DNA of 64,000 bases from Corynebacterium otitidis ATCC 51513 (GTDB taxonomy: Bacteria; Actinomycetota; Actinomycetes; Mycobacteriales; Mycobacteriaceae). The notes under the pieces are model-generated. The model was not told the origin of the DNA, ran no database searches, and saw only the letters and a program-made list of their open reading frames with translations. Below are positions 43,270-52,501 of this stretch, piece by piece (the stretch's first letter is position 1; the number at the start of each line of letters is the position of its first letter). The stretch lies in contig NZ_JH815193.1 in assembly GCF_000296405.1 (NCBI RefSeq), positions 353,712 to 417,711 of the forward strand. The letters are read 5' to 3'. The position numbers were made by a program, and so were the translations under genes.

Positions 43270-43423
43270 GGCCCCAAATCGTAGCGAACGGCCCCTCCCC
43301 CAGCGCCGCTGCCCGGGGCAATCGGGGCATGTATAGAGCCACGCGCCCGGCGCGCCCGCCCGCGTCGCGGCGCCGGGCGGTTCCGGGCGACCCGAGACAG
43401 TTTTAATGGGGAAGCTAAACCCG

Positions 43424-43462
43424 TTGCCGGTGCGGCGGGGCGCGGCTAGCATGATCCGTCCA
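43424..43462 (+). promoter_or_regulatory. moaA promoter, leaderless type
   Basis: TTGCCG (43424-43429) and TAGCAT (43447-43452) are separated by 17 bases, and the ATG begins 10 nt after the -10 box. No Shine-Dalgarno is present. This geometry decides the moaA start at 43463 over the upstream in-frame ATGs at 43406 and 43451. Confidence 0.65.
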
Positions 43463-44563
43463 ATGACTTCTCCGGCTGCGCTCCCCACCCCGACGATGCC
43501 CCCGCGCCCCGGCCGGGGGAATCGACCGCGGGCCGCGGCCGCCCCGAGGCTGCTCGAGGACGCCTTCGGGCGGGTCGCGCGCGACCTGCGGGTCTCTCTG
43601 ACCGACCGCTGCAACCTGCGCTGCACCTATTGCATGCCGGCGGCGGGCCTGGAGTGGATCCCCACCCCGGAGACCCTGAGTGACGAGGAGACCATCCGGC
43701 TCATCACTCTCGCCGTCGAGCGCCTCGGGATCCGGCAGGTGCGCTTCACCGGCGGGGAGCCGCTGCTGCGCCGCTCCCTGCCCGAGATCGTCGCCGCGAC
43801 CAAGCAGCTCGCCACAGACGAGGACGCTCCCCCGGAGACCGCGATCACGACGAACGCGCTCGGGCTCGACAAGAAGGCCCGCCGCCTCAAGGAGGCGGGG
43901 CTTAACCGGGTGAACATCTCCCTCGACACGATCGACCGGGAGAACTACGCGCGGCTCACCCGCCGCGACCGGCTAGAGGGCGTCTTCGCCGGCATCGACG
44001 CCGCCCTCGAGGCGGGGCTTGAGCCGGTGAAGATCAACAGCGTCGTCATGCCCGGCATCAACGACGGCGACGTCGTTGAGCTTGCGCTCTTCGCCCTCGA
44101 GCGGGGCCTGGAGCTGCGCTTCATCGAGCAGATGCCGCTGGGTCCCCCGGAGTGCTGGGACCGCGAGCGCATGGTCACCGCGAACGACATCCTCGACCGG
44201 CTCCAGGAGCGCCTCGACCTCGAGCCGGCCCGGCGCCCGCGCGGCTCCGCGCCCGCGGAGGTCTTCCGCGCCCGGGACCGCAAGCGCCCCGGGGTGAGTG
44301 GCACGATCGGGGTGATCGCCTCGGTGAGCGCGCCATTCTGCGGGGACTGCGACCGCACCCGGCTCACCACCGACGGCGCGGTGCGCTCGTGTCTCTTCGC
44401 GAGCGAGGAGACCTCGCTGCGCGACCTCATGCGCGCCGGCGCGAGCGACGAGGAGCTCGCCGAGGCGTGGGCCGGCGCGATGGCGATAAAGAAGCCCGGC
44501 CACGGCATCGACGACCCGAGCTTCGTGCAGCCGCGGCGCCGCATGTCCGCGATCGGGGGGTAG
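43463..44563 (+). CDS. moaA: GTP 3',8-cyclase MoaA
   Basis: A radical-SAM enzyme that starts molybdenum-cofactor synthesis from GTP. It has 366 residues from the chosen start. The N-terminal cluster is C50, C54 and C57 in [13 protein letters not shown]. The C-terminal cluster uses CGDC and the later SCLF cysteine. The terminal GG of the family is present (AIGG). It is divergent from argS and 7 kb away from the other molybdenum genes. Confidence 0.97.
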
Positions 44564-44581
44564 GGCTCGCCCCTGCCCCGC

Positions 44582-44606
44582 GGAGGCCGGGCGGGCCCCG
44601 GCCTCC
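44582..44606 (+). terminator. Probable terminator after moaA
   Basis: GGAGGCCGG (44582-44590) pairs with 44598-44606 around a 7-base loop and is followed by a pyrimidine run, TCCTCCCTTAT. It is 18 bases after the moaA stop. Confidence 0.55.
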
Positions 44607-44710
44607 TCCTCCCTTATAAGGATGGCGCCGTGGGCCGCGCGGCGAGAGGGCCGTCGATCCCAGCCCCGGCGGGCCTTAGCCCGTGCTAGGGTTGCGGGCG
44701 GTTTTCGACA

Positions 44711-44747
44711 TCCTTTAACGGGCCGCCCGGCGAGGCGGAGAAGGAGG
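44711..44747 (+). promoter_or_regulatory. PyrR-binding RNA hairpin covering the pyrR Shine-Dalgarno
   Basis: TCCTT (44711-44715) pairs with AAGGA (44741-44745) and CCGCC (44723-44727) with GGCGG (44734-44738). The loop region CCCGGCGAGG matches the CCNGNGAGG core of the known PyrR anti-antiterminator element. The only AAGGAGG before pyrR (44741-44747) is inside the lower stem. PyrR-UMP binding should therefore block translation, as reported for mycobacteria. A TAGGGT -10 candidate lies at 44687-44692. Confidence 0.75.
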
Positions 44748-44761
44748 TCTTCGGCCCGATC

Positions 44762-45331
44762 ATGCCGAGAGAGATCCAAAGCGCCGAACAGGTGCAGCGA
44801 ACGATCGTGCGCATCGCGCACCAGATCATCGAGAAGACCGCGCTGGACGCGCCGGACGGACCCCAGGTCGCGCTCATCGGCATCCCGTCCGGCGGGGTGC
44901 CGCTGGCCGCACGCCTCGCGGAGCAGGTCGAGCGCCACTCCGGGCGCGCGGTCGCGACCGGCGAGCTCGACGTCACGCTCTACCGCGACGACTTGAAGGA
45001 CAAGCCGCACCGGGCGCTTCGCCCCACGAGGCTTCCCGAGGGCGGGATCGACGGCGCGCTCGTCGTGCTCGTCGACGACGTGCTCTACTCGGGCCGCACG
45101 GTGCGCGCCGCGCTCGACGCGCTGCGCGACTTCGGCCGGCCCGCGGCCGTGCAGCTCGCGGTACTCGTCGACCGCGGCCACCGGGAGCTTCCCATCCGCG
45201 CCGACTACGTCGGCAAGAACCTGCCCACCTCCCGCCACGAGGACGTCGACGTGCTGCTCGCCGAGCTCGACGGCCGCGACGCGGTGGTGCTCACCCGGCC
45301 CGGCGAGAAGGAAGGCGGCGACGAGCAGTGA
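44762..45331 (+). CDS. pyrR: Bifunctional pyr operon regulator/uracil phosphoribosyltransferase PyrR
   Basis: Binds pyr mRNA when charged with UMP, and has some uracil phosphoribosyltransferase activity. It has 189 residues. The PRPP loop is [12 protein letters not shown] (102-113). RNA-contacting basic segments include [12 protein letters not shown]. It probably controls its own message through the hairpin just upstream. Its stop overlaps the pyrB GTG by 4 bases. Confidence 0.96.
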
Positions 45332-46263
45332 AGCATCTCTTGAGCATCGGGGACCTCTCCGCGGGAGAGATCACCTCGATCATGGACGAGGCGGACCGCT
45401 TCACCGAGGCCCTCGAGGGCCGCGCGGTGCGCCAACTGCCCACGCTGCGCGGCACCATCGTCTACACCCTGTTCTACGAGAACTCGACGCGCACCCGCTC
45501 CTCCTTCGAGACCGCCGCGAAGCAGCTCAGCGCCACGACGATGAATATCTCCGCGGGCTCGTCCTCGGTGAAGAAGGGCGAGTCGCTGCGCGACACCGGG
45601 CTCACGCTGCGCGCGCTCGGCGCCGACGCGATCGTCATCCGCCACCCCGTCTCCGGGGCGCCGAAGCACCTCAAAGAGGCGGTCGACGCGGACGGCAACG
45701 GCCCGAGCGTCATCAACGCCGGCGACGGGCAGCACCAGCACCCCACCCAGGCGCTCCTCGACGCGGTGACCCTGCGCCGCCGGCTCGGCTCCATCGAGGG
45801 CAAAAAGGTCGTACTCGCCGGGGACTGCCTGCACTCGCGGGTGGTGCGCTCGAACGTCGACCTACTCACCACCCTCGGCGCGGAGGTCGTCCTCGCCGCG
45901 CCGCCCACCCTCCTGCCCGCGAGCGTGGACAGCTGGCCGGTGCGCTCGACCGCGGACCTCGACGCGGAGCTCCCCGACGCGGACGCGGTGATGATGCTGC
46001 GCGTCCAGGCCGAGCGGATGCACGGCGGGTTCTTCCCCTCGAAGCGGGAGTACACCGCCCTCTACGGGCTCACCGAAAAGCGCGCCGACGCGATGAAGCC
46101 CGGCGCGGTGATCATGCACCCCGGCCCGATGATCCGCGGCATGGAGATCGACTACGGCGTCGCCGACTGGGCCAACACCACGGTCCTCGACCAGGTCGCC
46201 ACCGGCGTGCACACCCGCATGGCGGTGCTCTTCGCCCTGCTCGCCGAGACCCGCGACGCCTAA
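45328..46263 (+). CDS. pyrB: Aspartate carbamoyltransferase catalytic chain
   Basis: Condenses carbamoyl phosphate with aspartate. The 311 residues are normal. The carbamoyl-phosphate loop STRTR is at 53-57, SVKKGES at about 80-86 donates the cross-subunit lysine, and HPTQ is at 138-141. The GTG start overlaps pyrR (GTGA). No pyrI regulatory chain is near. It precedes the degenerate PyrC and may complex with it. Confidence 0.97.
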
Positions 46264-46272
46264 GAGACTTTT

Positions 46273-46317
46273 AAAAAACGACTCCCCGCCCCGGGCCCGA
46301 AGCGTCCCGGGGCGGGG
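46273..46317 (-). terminator. Terminator-like hairpin pointing against transcription, between pyrB and pyrC
   Basis: A 12-bp perfect stem (46284-46295 with 46306-46317) has the T-run on its minus-strand exit side (AAAAAA at 46273-46278 on plus). Read in the pyr direction no T-run follows. No minus-strand gene ends here. Confidence 0.55.
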
Positions 46318-46364
46318 CCCGGCACCCACCACCCGCACCAGACGGAAAGAGGCTCGCCACCACC

Positions 46365-47663
46365 ATGACGACTCCACAGACCGAAGCCCAGCCGGACACG
46401 CTGGCCATCGACAACGCCCGCCCCTACGGCGAGGGCGAGCCCACCACGCTTCTTATCAAGGACGGGGTCATCGCCGCCGTGGGGAGCGACGCCCCCGCCG
46501 AGCGGCGCCTCGACGCGCGCGGCGCGGTCGTGGTGCCCGGGCTCGTCGACCTGTTCGCGCACCTCGGGGAGCCGGGCTCGGAGCGCGACGAGACGATTGC
46601 CACCGCCTCGGCGGCCGCGGCGCGCGGCGGCTACACCGCGCTTGTCGCCGCGCCGGACACCGAGCCCGCGCTCGACGACCCGATCGTCGCGGAGGCGGTG
46701 TGGCGCTCAGGCCTCGAGGCGGGGCTCGTCGACGTGCAGCCCGCGGGCACCATCACCCGCGGCGGCGCCGGGGAGACTCTTACCGAGATGGGCCTGTTGG
46801 CGCGCTCGAAGGCCGCGGTGCGGCTCTTTAGCGACCAGCCGGGCTCGGTGGCGGACCCGGTGATCCTGCGCCGCGCGCTGCAGTACGCCCGCGGCCAGGG
46901 CGCCCTTATCGCCGAGCGCCCCGTCGACGCGCGGCTCGCCGAGTCGGCGTGCGCCCACGAGGGCCCGCGCGCCGACCGGCTGGGGCTGCGCGGCCAGCCC
47001 CGCTCCGCGGAGGAGGCCGTCGTCGCGCGCGACGCGCTGCTGGCGAGGGACGCCGGGGCTGCCTTGCACCTCTTCCCCATCACCACGGCGGGCTCCGCCA
47101 GGATCGTTGAGCTCGCCAAGGAGGCCGGCGTGGAGCTCACCTGCTCGACGACGCCGCACCACCTGCTGCTCGACGACTCCGTCGTCGACGCCGCGAGCGG
47201 CGAGATGCGCGTCGAGCCGCCGCTTCGGGAGGCCTCCGACGTCGAGGCGCTGCGCGAGGCGCTGCTCGGCGGCGCGATCGATTGTGTGGCGAGCGACCAC
47301 CGCCCCGTCGCCGAGGAGGAGAAGGCCTGCGAGCTCGAGCACGCGACGCCCGGCTTCGTCGGCCTGGAGACCACCCTTCCCGCCCTCGTCGAGACGTTCA
47401 TCCGCCCGGGGCTGGCCGACTGGCGCTGGCTCGCGGCGGTGCTCTCCGAGCGGCCGGCGCGCATCGCGGGCCTTTCCGGGCACGGCCGGCCCGTCGCGCC
47501 CGGCGAGCCGGCGAACCTCGCTGTGATCGACCCGGAGGCCGCCGTCACGGTGCGCCCCGAGGAGTTCGCCTCCAAGTCCACAAACACGCCGTTTTCCGGG
47601 CGCGAGTTCCACGGCCGCGTCGAGGCGACCGTGCTGCGCGGCCGGGTCACCTACCAGCGCTAG
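46365..47663 (+). CDS. Degenerate dihydroorotase-like protein (probable pseudo-enzyme PyrC')
   Basis: A 432-residue amidohydrolase-fold protein aligned over its length with type I dihydroorotase. The HVH zinc pair is FAH (64-66), the LREPG substrate motif is LGEPG, and the SDDG aspartate is replaced in SDQPG (156-160). The HCED-type histidine is missing around 182-186 (IAERP), and the AHVST histidine is replaced in LFPIT (236-240). D311 in ASDHRPV is kept but the following histidine is V315. It should be catalytically dead. Comparable inactive PyrC' proteins scaffold aspartate transcarbamoylase in Pseudomonas. The reading frame is intact and codon use normal, so it is not simply decaying. Confidence 0.88.
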   Translation: MTTPQTEAQPDTLAIDNARPYGEGEPTTLLIKDGVIAAVGSDAPAERRLDARGAVVVPGLVDLFAHLGEPGSERDETIATASAAAARGGYTALVAAPDTEPALDDPIVAEAVWRSGLEAGLVDVQPAGTITRGGAGETLTEMGLLARSKAAVRLFSDQPGSVADPVILRRALQYARGQGALIAERPVDARLAESACAHEGPRADRLGLRGQPRSAEEAVVARDALLARDAGAALHLFPITTAGSARIVELAKEAGVELTCSTTPHHLLLDDSVVDAASGEMRVEPPLREASDVEALREALLGGAIDCVASDHRPVAEEEKACELEHATPGFVGLETTLPALVETFIRPGLADWRWLAAVLSERPARIAGLSGHGRPVAPGEPANLAVIDPEAAVTVRPEEFASKSTNTPFSGREFHGRVEATVLRGRVTYQR

Positions 47664-47672
47664 CGAGAAGAA

Positions 47673-47706
47673 GCGCGCCGGACGGACGGCCTCGTCGCCG
47701 GCGCGC
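47673..47706 (-). terminator. Probable terminator after argR
   Basis: GCGCGCCGG (47673-47681) pairs with 47698-47706. On the minus strand TTCTTCTCG follows. It lies between the converging pyrC-like and argR genes; an 18-bp palindrome of CCGG units sits at 47726-47743. Confidence 0.55.
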
Positions 47707-47751
47707 CCGCCGCGCGGCGACCAGGCCGCCGGCCGGCCGGCGGTTCTGGAA

Positions 47752-48237
47752 TTAGTCCTCGCCGCGCAGGCCGCGGAGAATCTCGTAGACGTCCTTGCCG
47801 GTCGCGGGCTCCCGGGCGAGCAGGAAGATCGTGTCGTCGCCCGCGGTGCAGCCAACGACCTCGGGCAGGTCAGCGCGGTCGACGAAGCTCGCCAGGTACT
47901 GCGCGCCGCCCGGCGCGGTGCGCAGCATCGCGAAGCACCACGAGTAGTCGAGCCCGACTGCGAGCTCCCGGATGCGCTTGCGCAGCCGCTCGAGCTCCGC
48001 GCCGCCGCCCGGGTCGGGCTCGGTCTCGGGGTCGGCGACGTAGCGGGCCTTGCCCCCGCCGGCCGGCTTGATCTTGCGCGCCCCGATCTCGTCGAGGTCG
48101 CGCGAGAGGGTCGTCTGGGTGACCTCGATGCCGAACTCCCCGAGCGCCTCGGCGAGCTGCACCTGGTTGTGGATCTCCTCGGCGGCGAGGATATCGCGGA
48201 TCTTCTGGTGCCTGGCCAGGCGCGACTGCGGGATCAT
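47752..48237 (-). CDS. argR: Arginine repressor ArgR
   Basis: A hexameric arginine-sensing DNA-binding protein. The start at 48235-48237 gives 161 residues (MIPQSRLARHQKIRDILAAE). The winged helix has TQTTLSRDLDEIGARK (40-55). The arginine-binding C-terminal motif is GCTAGDDTIFLL (129-140). In C. glutamicum argR sits in the argCJBDFRGH biosynthetic cluster; here it follows arcB, which suggests it controls the deiminase genes. Confidence 0.95.
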   Translation of the reverse strand: MIPQSRLARHQKIRDILAAEEIHNQVQLAEALGEFGIEVTQTTLSRDLDEIGARKIKPAGGGKARYVADPETEPDPGGGAELERLRKRIRELAVGLDYSWCFAMLRTAPGGAQYLASFVDRADLPEVVGCTAGDDTIFLLAREPATGKDVYEILRGLRGED

Positions 48238-48381
48238 CGGGTTCGGCGCGCTCCTCTCGGCGGCTGGGCGGTCATCGCGGACGACGGTTACTCCAAGGAT
48301 CCTAGCCCCACGCGGCGCCACCGCCCGGGACCGGCGAGCACTTCCAGCTCGGACGGACGGAAACGACTCGGTCCGCGCCGG

Positions 48382-49395
48382 CTACGCGAGGGTCGCGGCG
48401 ATGATCGCCTTGATGGTGTGCATGCGGTTCGCGGCCTGCTCGAAGACCTTCGAGGCCGCCGACTCGAAGACCTCGTCGGTGATCTCCAGCTCGTTGAGGC
48501 CGAAGCGCTCGGCGACGGCGGCGCCGATCGTGGTGTCCTTGTTATGGAAAGCCGGCAGGCAGTGCAGCACGATCGCGCCGTCCGCCGCGGAGCCGACGAG
48601 CTCGCTGGTCACCTGGTAGGGCTTGAGCCGCTCGATGCGCTCGGCCCACAGCTCCTCGGGCTCGCCCATGGAGACCCAGATGTCGGTGTACAGCGCGGTC
48701 GCCCCGGCGGCCGCCTCGGCGGGGTCGGTGGTGACGGTGAGCGTCGAGCCGGTGTTCTTCGCCTCGGCGCGGGCCCAGTCGAGGAGCTCCGGGGCGGGCT
48801 GGAGGCCCTCGGGGGCGGCGAACGCGACGTCGACGCCGAGCTTCACCAGGCCAACCAGCAGGGAGTTGGCGACGTTGTTGCGGGCGTCGCCGAAGTAGGC
48901 GACCTTCGCGCCCTCGATGCCGCCGGGGGCGTGCTCGGCGATGGTGAGCAGGTCGGCGATCGTCTGGGTGGGGTGCGCCTCGTCGGTGAGCCCGTTGATG
49001 ACCGGCACCCCGGAGCGCTCGGCGAGCTCCTCGACGATCTCCTGGCCGAAGCCGCGGTACTCGATGGCGTCGTAGATCCCGCCGAGCACCCGCGCGGTAT
49101 CGGCGATGGACTCCTTGTCGCCCATCTGGCTGGTGCGCGAGTCGAGGTAGGTCACCCCGAGCCCGAGGTCCGAGCCGGCGACCTCAAACGAGGCGCGGGT
49201 GCGCGTCGAGGTCTTCTCGAAGATGAGGACGATGTTCTTGCCCTCTAACAGGCGGTGGGGCTCGCCCGCTTCCTTGAGCCGCTTGAAGTACGCCGCGGAG
49301 TCGACGAGCCCGCGAATCTCTTCTGCCTCGAGGTCCCTGATCGCGAGGAAGCTCCGGCCCTTGAGGCTCGAGACGACGTTCGGAGGCTGGGGCAT
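48382..49395 (-). CDS. arcB: Ornithine carbamoyltransferase, catabolic (ArcB) type
   Basis: Interconverts citrulline plus phosphate with ornithine plus carbamoyl phosphate. The start is the ATG at 49393-49395 with GGGAGAG upstream, giving 337 residues. STRTR is at 63-67, and EYRGFGQEIVEELAE and HPTQ (141-144) are typical of catabolic ArcB; corynebacterial ArgF has HPCQ instead. The ornithine loop HCLPAFHNKDT is present. Neighbouring arcA supports the catabolic role. Confidence 0.92.
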   Translation of the reverse strand: MPQPPNVVSSLKGRSFLAIRDLEAEEIRGLVDSAAYFKRLKEAGEPHRLLEGKNIVLIFEKTSTRTRASFEVAGSDLGLGVTYLDSRTSQMGDKESIADTARVLGGIYDAIEYRGFGQEIVEELAERSGVPVINGLTDEAHPTQTIADLLTIAEHAPGGIEGAKVAYFGDARNNVANSLLVGLVKLGVDVAFAAPEGLQPAPELLDWARAEAKNTGSTLTVTTDPAEAAAGATALYTDIWVSMGEPEELWAERIERLKPYQVTSELVGSAADGAIVLHCLPAFHNKDTTIGAAVAERFGLNELEITDEVFESAASKVFEQAANRMHTIKAIIAATLA

Positions 49396-49532
49396 GGCGA
49401 CTCTCCCTATAGTTTCTCTGTCGAAAGTTACAGCAACCTGGCAGTCTACCCCGCCGAATTCTAGCGGAGCCGCCCGCCGCGGGGGCCGCGTCGCGGGTGA
49501 GGATCGGGGTCTTTTCCGGAGCCGGCGCGGTC

Positions 49533-49694
49533 CTAGCGCCTCGGCCCCTCGCCTCCCCGGCGCTCCTTGAGTAGCGCGATGATCTCCTCCTGGTTGCGGC
49601 GCGACTCCTTGAGCCCCCTGACGACGGAGACCCCGAAGTACACGAGGGCCACGACGATGGCGATATAGACGAGCAGCACGATGAGCTCGATCAT
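49533..49694 (-). CDS. 53-residue single-pass membrane protein
   Basis: The ATG at 49692-49694 follows GGAAGGAGATCCA, an excellent ribosome site. One helix, MIELIVLLVYIAIVVALVYFG by pattern (residues 1-21), leads to a basic/acidic amphipathic tail, RRNQEEIIALLKERRGGE. I do not recognise a family. It sits between arcA and arcB, the place where arcD-like transporters are often found, but it is far too small to be a transporter by itself. Confidence 0.7.
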   Translation of the reverse strand: MIELIVLLVYIAIVVALVYFGVSVVRGLKESRRNQEEIIALLKERRGGEGPRR

Positions 49695-49749
49695 TGGATC
49701 TCCTTCCCCGCCCCGGCGACGAGCCCGATCCGCAAGCCGAGCGCGCTTC

Positions 49750-49805
49750 CGTGGCATAGAACACATCAAAATATGGTTACTTACAACACACTAACGAAAT
49801 CCGCG
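49750..49805 (-). promoter_or_regulatory. AT-rich probable promoter of the small ORF/arcB unit
   Basis: This stretch between the arcA stop and the 53-residue gene is strikingly AT-rich against its surroundings. On the minus strand it contains GTTA-N12-TAAC, then TATTTT and TTCTAT-like -10 candidates. The exact promoter and any ArgR box cannot be fixed by eye. Confidence 0.4.
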
Positions 49806-49842
49806 ACACCCCGCGGCCCCGGGAAGGCCTTCGGGCCGGCGC

Positions 49843-51087
49843 CTAGTCGTCGACCGGGTCGCGCAGCACGGGGCAGGTCATGCAGTGCCCGCCGCCGCGG
49901 CCCCGGCCGAGCTCCGCGGAGCGGATGGTGATGAGCTCGACGCCGGCGTCGACGAGCTTCTCGTTGGTGGCCTCGGTGCGGTCGTAGCCGATCGCCACGC
50001 CCGGCTCGAGGGCGACGAGGTTGTTCGCGTCGTTCCACTGCTCGCGCTCCGCGGCGTACGGGTCGCCGCCGGTGGACACCGCGCGGAGCTTCCCGAGACC
50101 GAGCTTCTCGGCGAGCACGTCGAGCAGGTGGCCGTCCTGGCGCTCCACGGCGAGACGCCCGCCGGCGCCGAGGGTGAGCACGAGGGGCACCGCCTCGTCG
50201 AGGACGGGCGGGTAGTAGGTCACCAGATCCCGGTCGAGGAACGTGAGCACGGTGTCGAGGTGCATCGCGGCGCGGCGCTTCTCCATCGCGGCGACGACGA
50301 CGCTCGTCGCCGCGCCCCGGGTGAGCAGCTCGTAGGCGAGCTGGGAGACGCCCTGCCAGGAGGTGCGCTCCCCCATGCCGGCGAGCACCACCCCGTTGCC
50401 GAGCGCCATGAGGTCCCCGCCCTCTAGGGCGGCGAGGCCTTGGGTCTCGTGGCCGTCGCCGCCGAACCAGATCTCGAACTCGCGGTCCTTGAAGAGCGGG
50501 TGGTGGCGGTAGACGGCCTCGGTAAGCAGGGTCTCCTGGCGGCGGGTGCGCCAGTACATGGGGTTGAGCGACACCCCGTCGTAGAGCCACGCGGTCGTGT
50601 CCCTGGTGTAGAGCGCGTTGGGCAGCGGCGGCAGGAGGAAGTCGGTCGGCTCGTGGAGGTCGCGCAGGCCTTTGAGGTTCTGTCCGACGGCCTCGTCGGG
50701 GAGCTCCCCGTAGGCGAGTCCAGCGAGCAGGTAGTCGGCGAGCTCCCCGGCGGGGACGCCGAGGAGCCACTCGGCGAGCTCCTCGCCGGTGCCGCGGCCC
50801 ACGGTGCGGGCCTCGAGCTTGCGGCCCAGCACGAACTTTCGGCCCGCCTCGTCGTCGAGCACCTCGACGAGCAGGTCGCGCAGCTCGTGGACGACGACGC
50901 CTCTCGAGCGCATCGCGGCGACGAACTCGGCGTGGTCGCGCTCGGCCTGCTCGACCCATAACACGTCGTCGAAGAGCAGCTCCCCGCAGTTCGAGGGCGT
51001 GAGCCTGCGGTGCGCCTTCCCCGGCGCGCAGACGATGACCTCGCGTAGCCGCCCCGACTCCGAGTACACGCCGATCTCCCGGCCCAT
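49843..51087 (-). CDS. arcA: Arginine deiminase
   Basis: Hydrolyses arginine to citrulline and ammonia in the cytoplasm. The ATG at 51085-51087 (MGREIGVYSESGRL) gives 414 residues. Conserved blocks are LYTRDTTAWLYDGVSLNPM, the guanidino-binding LEGGD, and HLDTVLTFLDRD. The nucleophile is C402 in GGGHCMTCP. With arcB it converts arginine to ornithine and carbamoyl phosphate. No carbamate kinase (arcC) or antiporter (arcD) is in the window. Confidence 0.96.
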   Translation of the reverse strand: MGREIGVYSESGRLREVIVCAPGKAHRRLTPSNCGELLFDDVLWVEQAERDHAEFVAAMRSRGVVVHELRDLLVEVLDDEAGRKFVLGRKLEARTVGRGTGEELAEWLLGVPAGELADYLLAGLAYGELPDEAVGQNLKGLRDLHEPTDFLLPPLPNALYTRDTTAWLYDGVSLNPMYWRTRRQETLLTEAVYRHHPLFKDREFEIWFGGDGHETQGLAALEGGDLMALGNGVVLAGMGERTSWQGVSQLAYELLTRGAATSVVVAAMEKRRAAMHLDTVLTFLDRDLVTYYPPVLDEAVPLVLTLGAGGRLAVERQDGHLLDVLAEKLGLGKLRAVSTGGDPYAAEREQWNDANNLVALEPGVAIGYDRTEATNEKLVDAGVELITIRSAELGRGRGGGHCMTCPVLRDPVDD

Positions 51088-51223
51088 GGGCTCGCCCCTT
51101 TCCGTCGCGCCCCGCCCTCCGACCGCGTCCTTGGGGCGCGGCCCGCTGGGCGGGGTGAAGATAAACACCAGTGAAAACTGTGACCCAGCCTACGGGTCGG
51201 TGGCGCGGCTAGGGTGGTCGGGC

Positions 51224-52501
51224 ATGGCCATGGTTTCCGCCGACGACTATCTCCGCGAGGTCCTCGCCGCGACCCCTACCCTCCCGGCCCGCGCGTTCCG
51301 GGCCGGGGCCTCCGGCTGGCTGGCCGGCGGCGACGAGGCGGCGCGGCCGGGCTGGCTCGCCGCCGACGCCGAGGGCCGGCTGCCCGTCCCGCCGCAGGAC
51401 AACGCGGCCCTCGACGGGTTCTTGGTCCGCGCGGCCGACCTCGACGCGGACGGCCCGGTGACGCTGAGCGTGCGCGGGGAGGCGCCCGCCGGGGGCCGCC
51501 CGGCGCGCCCCGGGCCCGGGGAGGCCGCCCGCATCACCACCGGCGGTCCGGTCCCCGAGCCCAGCGAGGGGCTCGTCGTCGTCCCCGTCGAGGACACCGA
51601 CGCCCCGCGCGGCACCTACCTCCCCCTCCCCGAGGCCGTCACGATCCCCCACCCCGACGCGTCGCGCCCGGCGATCCGCCGCCGCGGCGAGCAGCTGGCC
51701 GAAGGAGTGACGGCGGCGAAGGCGGGCACGCGCCTCGACGCGGCCGCGGCCGCGGGGCTCGTCTCCGCGGGCATCGACGAGGTCTTGGCCCACCCGCTGC
51801 CCCGGGTCGCGATTGTTACCACCGGCGACGAGACCGCCCCCGGCGCCGAGGCCGGCCCGGGCGCGGTGCCCAACTCGAACGGCCCGATGCTCGAGCTCGC
51901 GATCGGCGAGGCGGGGCTCGCCTCCCGCGCGGCGCGCTTCCACGCGCCCGACGACCCAGAGGCGCTGCGCCGCGTCCTCGACGAGGCGGCCGCGGGCTTC
52001 GACGTCGTCCTCACCGCCGGGGGGATCTCCGCGGGGAACCGCGACGTCGTGCGCGCCCTCGGGGAGGACACCGGCAGGCTCTCGTTTCGGCGCGCGGGGC
52101 TGCGCCCCGGCGGCCCGCAGGGCCACGGCCACTGGCCCGTCCCCGGCGGGCGCCAGGAAGCCCGGGTGGTCTGCCTGCCGGGCAACCCGGTGGCCGCGTG
52201 GGTCAGCTTCCAGCTCTTCGCCCGTCCCGCGCTCGCCGCGGCCGCGGGCGGGCCGCGCCCCTCCTCGATCCTCGAGCGGCCGCGCTGCCGGCTGCGCGTC
52301 CCCGGCGGGCTGCCGAGGCCCTGGGAGGGGCTGCGCGCCCTGCCCGTCGCCATCGACTGGGTAAGCGGCGAAGTTCGCCCCGGCAGACGCGCCGCGCACT
52401 TCGTCGCCTCCCTCCCCGGCGCCGGCGGGATTGCTATCGTCGCCGACGAGCCCGTCGGCGACGGCGGGGAGGCCACGGTCCTTCTCACCGGCCGCGGCTA
52501 A
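51224..52501 (+). CDS. moeA: Molybdopterin molybdenumtransferase MoeA (copy 1)
   Basis: Inserts molybdenum into molybdopterin-AMP. It has 425 residues from the ATG at 51224, or 423 from the next ATG. Core motifs are DNAALDGF, TTGDETAPG with PNSNGPML, GGISAGNRD (aspartate kept) and PGNPVAAW. A TAGGGT box 8 nt before the ATG suggests a leaderless start. It is divergent from arcA and leads moeA-moaC-mobA. Confidence 0.92.
   Translation: MAMVSADDYLREVLAATPTLPARAFRAGASGWLAGGDEAARPGWLAADAEGRLPVPPQDNAALDGFLVRAADLDADGPVTLSVRGEAPAGGRPARPGPGEAARITTGGPVPEPSEGLVVVPVEDTDAPRGTYLPLPEAVTIPHPDASRPAIRRRGEQLAEGVTAAKAGTRLDAAAAAGLVSAGIDEVLAHPLPRVAIVTTGDETAPGAEAGPGAVPNSNGPMLELAIGEAGLASRAARFHAPDDPEALRRVLDEAAAGFDVVLTAGGISAGNRDVVRALGEDTGRLSFRRAGLRPGGPQGHGHWPVPGGRQEARVVCLPGNPVAAWVSFQLFARPALAAAAGGPRPSSILERPRCRLRVPGGLPRPWEGLRALPVAIDWVSGEVRPGRRAAHFVASLPGAGGIAIVADEPVGDGGEATVLLTGRG

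Follow-up and report, generated by a model that had tools for sequence, protein, structure and literature searches.

Inactive dihydroorotase chains that partner aspartate transcarbamoylase (ATCase) are known in proteobacteria, and their birth is usually hidden by time. Such a partner in Pseudomonas, called PyrC′ or pDHO (pyrX), is described as having unconserved zinc residues and as being accompanied by separate active dihydroorotases (PMC7053772, PMC2770081). The Pseudomonas aeruginosa ATCase chain is reported to be monomeric and inactive when pDHO is missing (PMC7053772). Likewise, disruption of the pyrB-adjacent gene smc01361 of S. meliloti is reported to cause pyrimidine auxotrophy, and its authors propose that PyrB needs the inactive PyrX (PMC5929573). 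Fungal CAD-like proteins also keep an inactive dihydroorotase beside ATCase (PMC7053772, PMC4581275), but these are fused, multidomain eukaryotic proteins, unlike the separate chains of Corynebacterium otitidis described here.

Streptomyces and Aquifex have ATCase–dihydroorotase dodecamers that are formed by the same pair of chains and are probably of the same quaternary type as the PyrB–PyrC′ complex predicted below (PMC4581275). The Streptomyces complex has dihydroorotase activity, as stated in a title cited in that report (PMC4581275), and therefore the PyrC chain in the ancestral complex of actinobacteria was probably active. Whereas the dihydroorotase chain of the Streptomyces and Aquifex dodecamers is active, that of C. 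otitidis should not be, judged from its residues.

We analysed a window of 64,000 nucleotides from C. otitidis ATCC 51513, which carries a dihydroorotase homologue, pyrC′, whose product appears to lack the catalytic site. Pseudomonas belongs to a different phylum from C. otitidis. The kind of protein is already known and PyrC′ of C. otitidis is probably an independent member of it; its traceable origin and its linkage to arginine deiminase genes are the interesting parts of the case. Among the matches listed in the open-access literature, titles and abstract openings name neither an inactive ATCase-linked dihydroorotase in this group nor a pyrRBC–arc cluster. The first-pass annotation of the window had likened the gene to PyrC′ of Pseudomonas, a likeness that holds for the arrangement of genes (the degenerate copy adjoins the only ATCase gene and an intact dihydroorotase is encoded separately) and that extends to a role in supporting ATCase by analogy (PMC7053772, PMC5929573). 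We consider it likely that PyrC′ is a catalytically dead chain, maintained because it serves PyrB structurally within an ATCase of the dodecamer type (class A).

The pyrC′ gene and its active-site positions

The pyrC′ gene lies on the forward strand, from an ATG at 46365 to a stop codon that ends at 47663. Its reading frame, coordinates and product length of 432 amino acids had been given correctly, and retention of length is borne out by dihydroorotase models that are covered in full. In profile searches the product matches TIGR00857 from end to end with 367 bits (cut-off 279) and NF006836 with 515 bits, which is below the cut-off of 538. Solved dihydroorotases are also matched by sequence, including 3mpg (E = 3e-72) and the Aquifex enzyme 3d6n (E = 1.5e-67). 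A structure of PyrC′ predicted from 16 sequences was poor (mean pLDDT 61.6, pTM 0.66, residues 62–167 below 50) and was set aside as proof of the fold; Foldseek placed dihydroorotases at the top for this model (3mpg, 4yiw and 3d6n; TM 0.57–0.58, r.m.s.d. 15–16 Å), which adds nothing beyond the sequence evidence.

Two genes precede pyrC′ on the same strand. The first, pyrR (44762–45331, 189 amino acids), matches NF003547 with 299 bits (cut-off 230) and overlaps by four bases with pyrB (45328–46263), which encodes an ATCase catalytic chain of 311 amino acids (TIGR00670, 291 bits, cut-off 237). This pyrB is the sole ATCase gene of the genome, the other match to the ATCase model being ornithine carbamoyltransferase (OTC). 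pyrC′ starts 101 bases behind pyrB, and the gap can fold into a G+C-rich stem-loop of 12 pairs (46284–46317, forward strand); folding of the whole gap stands weakly above shuffled sequences (z = −1.7; 15 of 200 shuffles fold equally well). The context downstream consists of reverse-strand genes with provisional starts: an argR-like repressor (47752–48219; TIGR01529, 114 bits, below the cut-off of 130), OTC (48382–49323, with the frame open further upstream; TIGR00658, 366 bits, cut-off 281) and the arginine deiminase gene arcA (49843–51087; NF002381, 506 bits, cut-off 414; TIGR01078, 444 bits, below 489). No Rfam family matches at the gathering threshold over 43300–51300, and a scan of 44500–48500 detected no promoter or terminator. 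The gene had been placed in the pyr operon, which is right as far as pyrR and pyrB precede it, but the operon is not complete because carAB and pyrF reside at another locus.

To define which active-site residues are retained, we aligned PyrC′ with the Aquifex enzyme, whose numbering is used here, and with 60 other homologues. Of these, 45 belong to the genus, the second C. otitidis copy among them, and 15 to the same order. The six ligand positions checked come from a report on that enzyme, in which the single active-site zinc is held by His61, His63 and Asp153 with Asp305 at 2.7 Å, His180 and His232 correspond to β-site ligands, and a β-site double mutant remains active (PMC3880350). PyrC′ has lost four of these six ligands (H61F, D153Q, H180R and H232P). 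Four further positions, the substrate residues R65, N95, N278 and H309, are changed as well.

The alignment places these changes as follows, all on the forward strand. The metal motif (46554–46568) reads F64 in place of H61, A65, H66 as the retained H63, L67, and G68 in place of R65. D98 stands for N95 (46656–46658), Q158 and P159 stand for the ligand D153 and for G154 (46836–46841), R185 and P238 stand for the ligands H180 (46917–46919) and H232 (47076–47078), and E284 stands for N278 (47214–47216). The last segment runs from D311, the retained D305, to V315 in place of H309 (47295–47309). The motif readings of the first-pass annotation agree with this alignment: HxH has become FAH, SDDG has become SDQPG, the histidines expected in two further motifs are absent, the arginine of LREPG is a glycine, and H66 and D311 are the only ligands left of six.

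All ten residues are present in 60 of the 60 other homologues, the second PyrC of C. otitidis included, and thus the losses in PyrC′ are real and unique within the set. Since the Aquifex β-site mutant is active, the absence of H180 and H232 would not by itself be evidence of inactivity; the changes that matter are those at H61 and D153. Of the four residues that mark an active type I dihydroorotase (H61, H63, D153 and D305), these two are the ones that are gone from PyrC′.

PyrC′ might instead be an atypical dihydroorotase whose activity does not depend on the canonical zinc site, given that a PyrC paralogue lacking the conserved zinc residues is reported to be active (PMC2770081) and that the aspartate D311 is retained. 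Predicted Zur regulation is a further mark of that paralogue type, and the neighbours of pyrC′ are pyrimidine and arginine genes. Such activity is very unlikely here, as the substrate residues are missing too and a canonical enzyme is encoded in the genome. Furthermore, two of the three residues that hold the Aquifex zinc have been lost (PMC3880350).

Recruitment of the amidohydrolase fold to another substrate, or to the binding of a regulatory ligand, would agree with the other polar or charged residues that now occupy the pocket (Q158, R185, E284 and R313) and with the adjoining arginine genes. We judge it very unlikely, because partnership with PyrB is the simpler reading, given where the gene lies behind pyrB and the PyrC′ cases already described. 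Also counted against recruitment is that metal-free hydrolases are not known in this family, save the reported PyrC paralogue without zinc residues.

The pyrC′ gene shows features by which a PyrC′, PyrX or pDHO is recognized: it is a full-length type I homologue next to pyrB, has lost ligands and substrate residues, and is accompanied by a separate copy that is of the active type by sequence. Among the sequences compared, PyrC′ stands closest to intact PyrCs from within the genus. Alphaproteobacterial loci of the PyrX type (L040–L054, L056 and L057) carry a degenerate copy with pyrB upstream at 16 of the 17. Their hosts are Acetobacteraceae, other Rhodospirillales and Brevundimonas. From these 17 loci, 14 alphaproteobacterial rows entered the alignment, and they show H61 to R, R65 to G and N95 to D. 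The R65G and N95D changes are common to PyrC′, although the shared N95D was partly selected for because the loci were fetched by peptide patterns from the window protein, one of which contains N95D. At 103 columns diagnostic against these 14 rows, PyrC′ is of the genus type at 49, of the alphaproteobacterial type at 15 and of neither type at 39. This distribution argues that PyrC′ does not belong to the alphaproteobacterial PyrX lineage.

An intact second copy and the pattern of change

The first-pass annotation had predicted that a second, active dihydroorotase must exist elsewhere. A search of the C. otitidis genome (2.12 Mb in 6 contigs, completeness 99.99%) with TIGR00857 yields two matches, PyrC′ and a PyrC that is intact in sequence, with all ten residues. 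The gene for the latter (C2:178907-180130; L003 10884-12188; NF006836, 643 bits, cut-off 538) heads a pyrC-carA-carB-pyrF cluster roughly 220 kb from pyrC′. Nearby nusB-efp-pepP genes identify this as the old site, as in relatives, and in the interval between nusB and the intact pyrC no trace of pyrR or pyrB was found.

The usual arrangement is a single operon. The order pyrR-pyrB-pyrC-carA-carB is found in all 39 loci compared, which represent 39 of 40 relatives (24 belong to the genus and 15 to the order), and in 11 further loci of the genus; the remaining relative, G183, lies outside this comparison with a best match of only E = 2.9e-31. In 31 of the 39 loci, the stretch compared also includes nusB, on the side of pyrR. 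Two matches to PyrC′ at E = 1e-40 occur in 4 of 242 genomes of the genus: C. otitidis, G219, G301 and G379. The second copy in G301 (L160) is partial, comprising the 3′ half of pyrC and the 5′ half of carA about 6 kb from the intact genes. The proposed comparison of PyrC′ across relatives, once run, revealed no other degenerate copy, as the copies aligned from 43 other genomes of the genus all have an intact active site. We count this result against the reading of PyrC′ as a retained partner.

We then asked where PyrC′ has changed, using 122 near-invariant columns, defined by an identity of 98% or more across 59 sequences that exclude both C. otitidis copies. PyrC′ differs at 28 of these, namely 8 of 10 active-site columns versus 20 of 112 others (Fisher p = 1e-4), a test that is partly circular because the list of active-site residues was partly suggested by the first-pass annotation itself. 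When only the six ligands are considered, 4 of 6 are changed versus 24 of the 116 other near-invariant columns (p = 0.025). Outside the active site, 92 of the 112 near-invariant columns are retained.

Leave-one-out counts of changed columns are 27 of 117 for PyrC′, 11 of 122 for the intact C. otitidis PyrC and a median of 0 over 45 rows of the genus. None of the 11 residues lost by the intact PyrC falls in the active site, and PyrC′ has lost 2 of these 11, which is the chance rate; the two copies are thus complementary at the active site alone. These 11 losses may mean that the intact PyrC no longer has to pair with PyrB. Catalysis and partnership with PyrB appear to be split between the two copies in C. 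otitidis.

Both copies have also evolved quickly. End branches in the PyrC tree measure 1.83 changes per site for PyrC′ and 0.74 for the intact PyrC, with a median of 0.19, and the corresponding values for C. otitidis PyrB are 0.42 and a median of 0.14. CarA (0.38, median 0.20) and CarB (0.27, median 0.12) are at about twice the median, which indicates that both PyrC copies outpace the general rate of the organism.

These data bear on whether pyrC′ is a fading pseudogene, a redundant copy that decays without a role and whose frame is open by chance. An intact pyrC elsewhere in the genome, the long end branch of PyrC′ and the lack of a degenerate copy in any second genome all accord with this explanation. 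The open frame is by itself weak evidence against it at 72% G+C, since among 2,000 neutral simulations the frame stayed open in 243 when half of the divergence was applied, in 575 with a quarter of it and in 1,171 with a tenth. However, a wholly neutral branch of 1.83 changes per site should have altered the majority of the 112 near-invariant columns beyond the active site, and the observed changes are instead concentrated in the active site. The G+C content by codon position (0.78/0.54/0.95) has the pattern of a coding gene, and no trace of pyrR and pyrB was found at the old site while pyrC′ remains full length beside pyrB. Loss focused on the active site, with other near-invariant sites mostly kept, is therefore better explained by a retained structural partner, and we regard a decaying pseudogene as improbable.

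Relocated pyrRBC sets beside arginine deiminase genes

The arrangement in C. otitidis recurs in the genus. Eight genomes have pyrRBC beside genes of the arginine deiminase pathway (L210-L215, L161, L164 and window positions 44762-51087), where arcB, arcC, arcD and the transposase mentioned below were named by profile models. arcA is present in 28 of 242 genomes of the genus; 13 of these 28 neighbourhoods were examined, and pyrRBC is near in seven (C. otitidis, G379, G387, G365, G298, G275 and G282). The eighth case, G219, was recognized by arcB-arcC, as arcA was not found there. All ten active-site residues are kept in the seven other relocated PyrCs. Five other genomes, G367, G320, G291, G161 and G305 (L216, L218-L221), have arcA with neither arcB nor arcC detected within 14 kb.

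The old sites of these genomes differ. G379 has pyrR-pyrB-pyrC beside argR, argS, arcD, arcA, arcB and arcC, and its old site has a scar made up of pieces of pyrR and pyrC ahead of carA. In G219 the old operon is complete, and a separate 10-kb contig (L161) carries pyrRBC, arcB and arcC. An IS3 family transposase adjoins these genes (L161 5081-6423), a hint at mobility. The old sites of G387, G365, G298 and G275 read nusB-carA-carB-pyrF, and pyrRBC was not found at them.

The eight relocated PyrBs form one clade (support 92/95, not starred), and the window PyrB falls in an inner clade of four rows (99/96). The PyrC tree leaves PyrC′ unplaced, because approximately unbiased (AU) tests reject neither a grouping with its own intact PyrC (p = 0.72) nor one with the two relocated PyrCs then known (p = 0.55). 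A simple duplication within the C. otitidis lineage, making PyrC′ the sister of its own intact PyrC, was dropped in favour of a shared relocated set on the basis of the PyrB trees, the PyrC trees being undecided.

The hosts of relocated pyrRBC probably do not form a single clade. CarA rejects one clade of seven hosts (p = 8.5e-6; G282, without carA, was left out), and when G219 is removed a single clade is not rejected by CarA (p = 0.2) but is rejected by CarB (p = 4.7e-4, from a quick tree). Thus, G219 and probably G379 either acquired the set by horizontal transfer or retained a duplicate of long standing. CarB also groups C. otitidis with G387, G275, G365 and G298 and with the old-operon genomes G155 and G212 (seven rows, support 93), so that vertical inheritance of the relocated set is possible for C. 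otitidis together with G387 and the G275 group. An earlier CarB tree was discarded because it included short loci (L222-L228) with broken pieces of carB. A plasmid search with PyrB returned 80 records, the best being a Tsukamurella plasmid at 64% and the other 79 below 60%.

Proposed origin of PyrC′ and the arginine link

Together, these arrangements suggest a path by which a PyrC chain could lose catalysis. The starting point would be the single pyrR-pyrB-pyrC-carA-carB operon seen in relatives. pyrRBC would have been copied to the arginine site, giving two pyrC copies, and the PyrB tree supports a single lineage of such relocated sets within the genus, to which the C. otitidis pyrB belongs. 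pyrR and pyrB would then have been lost at the old site, where pyrC kept its enzyme activity. The relocated pyrC would have lost its metal and substrate residues and yet been kept because the assembly or activity of PyrB would depend on a cognate PyrC chain. The presumed end point is the arrangement seen in C. otitidis, in which argR, OTC and arginine deiminase genes adjoin pyrR-pyrB-pyrC′ and the old site has pyrC-carA-carB-pyrF. Other lineages would have resolved the redundancy in the opposite way, with the old-site pyrC lost or scarred and the relocated pyrC intact. Living relatives thereby offer candidate intermediates, namely the intact operon, an extra relocated pyrRBC, scars at the old site and the split between dead and intact copies in C. 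otitidis. The case also makes testable whether an actinobacterial PyrB depends on a PyrC chain apart from catalysis.

The arginine deiminase linkage raises a further question about the source of carbamoyl phosphate. In Eggerthella lenta, orotate and pyrimidines are reported to be labelled by 13C-arginine (PMC10234575), and in Thermococcus kodakarensis carbamoyl phosphate derived from arginine is reported to feed pyrimidines via arginine synthetase, not deiminase (PMC13260591). C. otitidis has carAB, and none of the four amino-acid kinase genes matched in its genome (aspartate kinase, argB, proB and pyrH) encodes a carbamate kinase, so an arginine route is only a possibility there. A bolder proposal, which we find unlikely, is that relocation of pyrRBC couples pyrimidine synthesis to carbamoyl phosphate from arginine. 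PyrC′ would be a scaffold that docks PyrB to OTC and the arginine side for hand-off, dihydroorotase activity would be left with the carAB cluster, and G282 would be the extreme case.

The genome of G282 is a single contig of 99% completeness in which carA was not found and carB has only partial matches at 24–25% identity. It has pyrRBC, arcBC, arcDA and pyrF (L214, L215), and its gene content suggests that carbamoyl phosphate may come from arginine in this organism. The pyrRBC–arc linkage, seen in eight genomes including this one in which carbamoyl phosphate synthetase genes were not detected, thus makes arginine a possible source of carbamoyl phosphate for pyrimidines.
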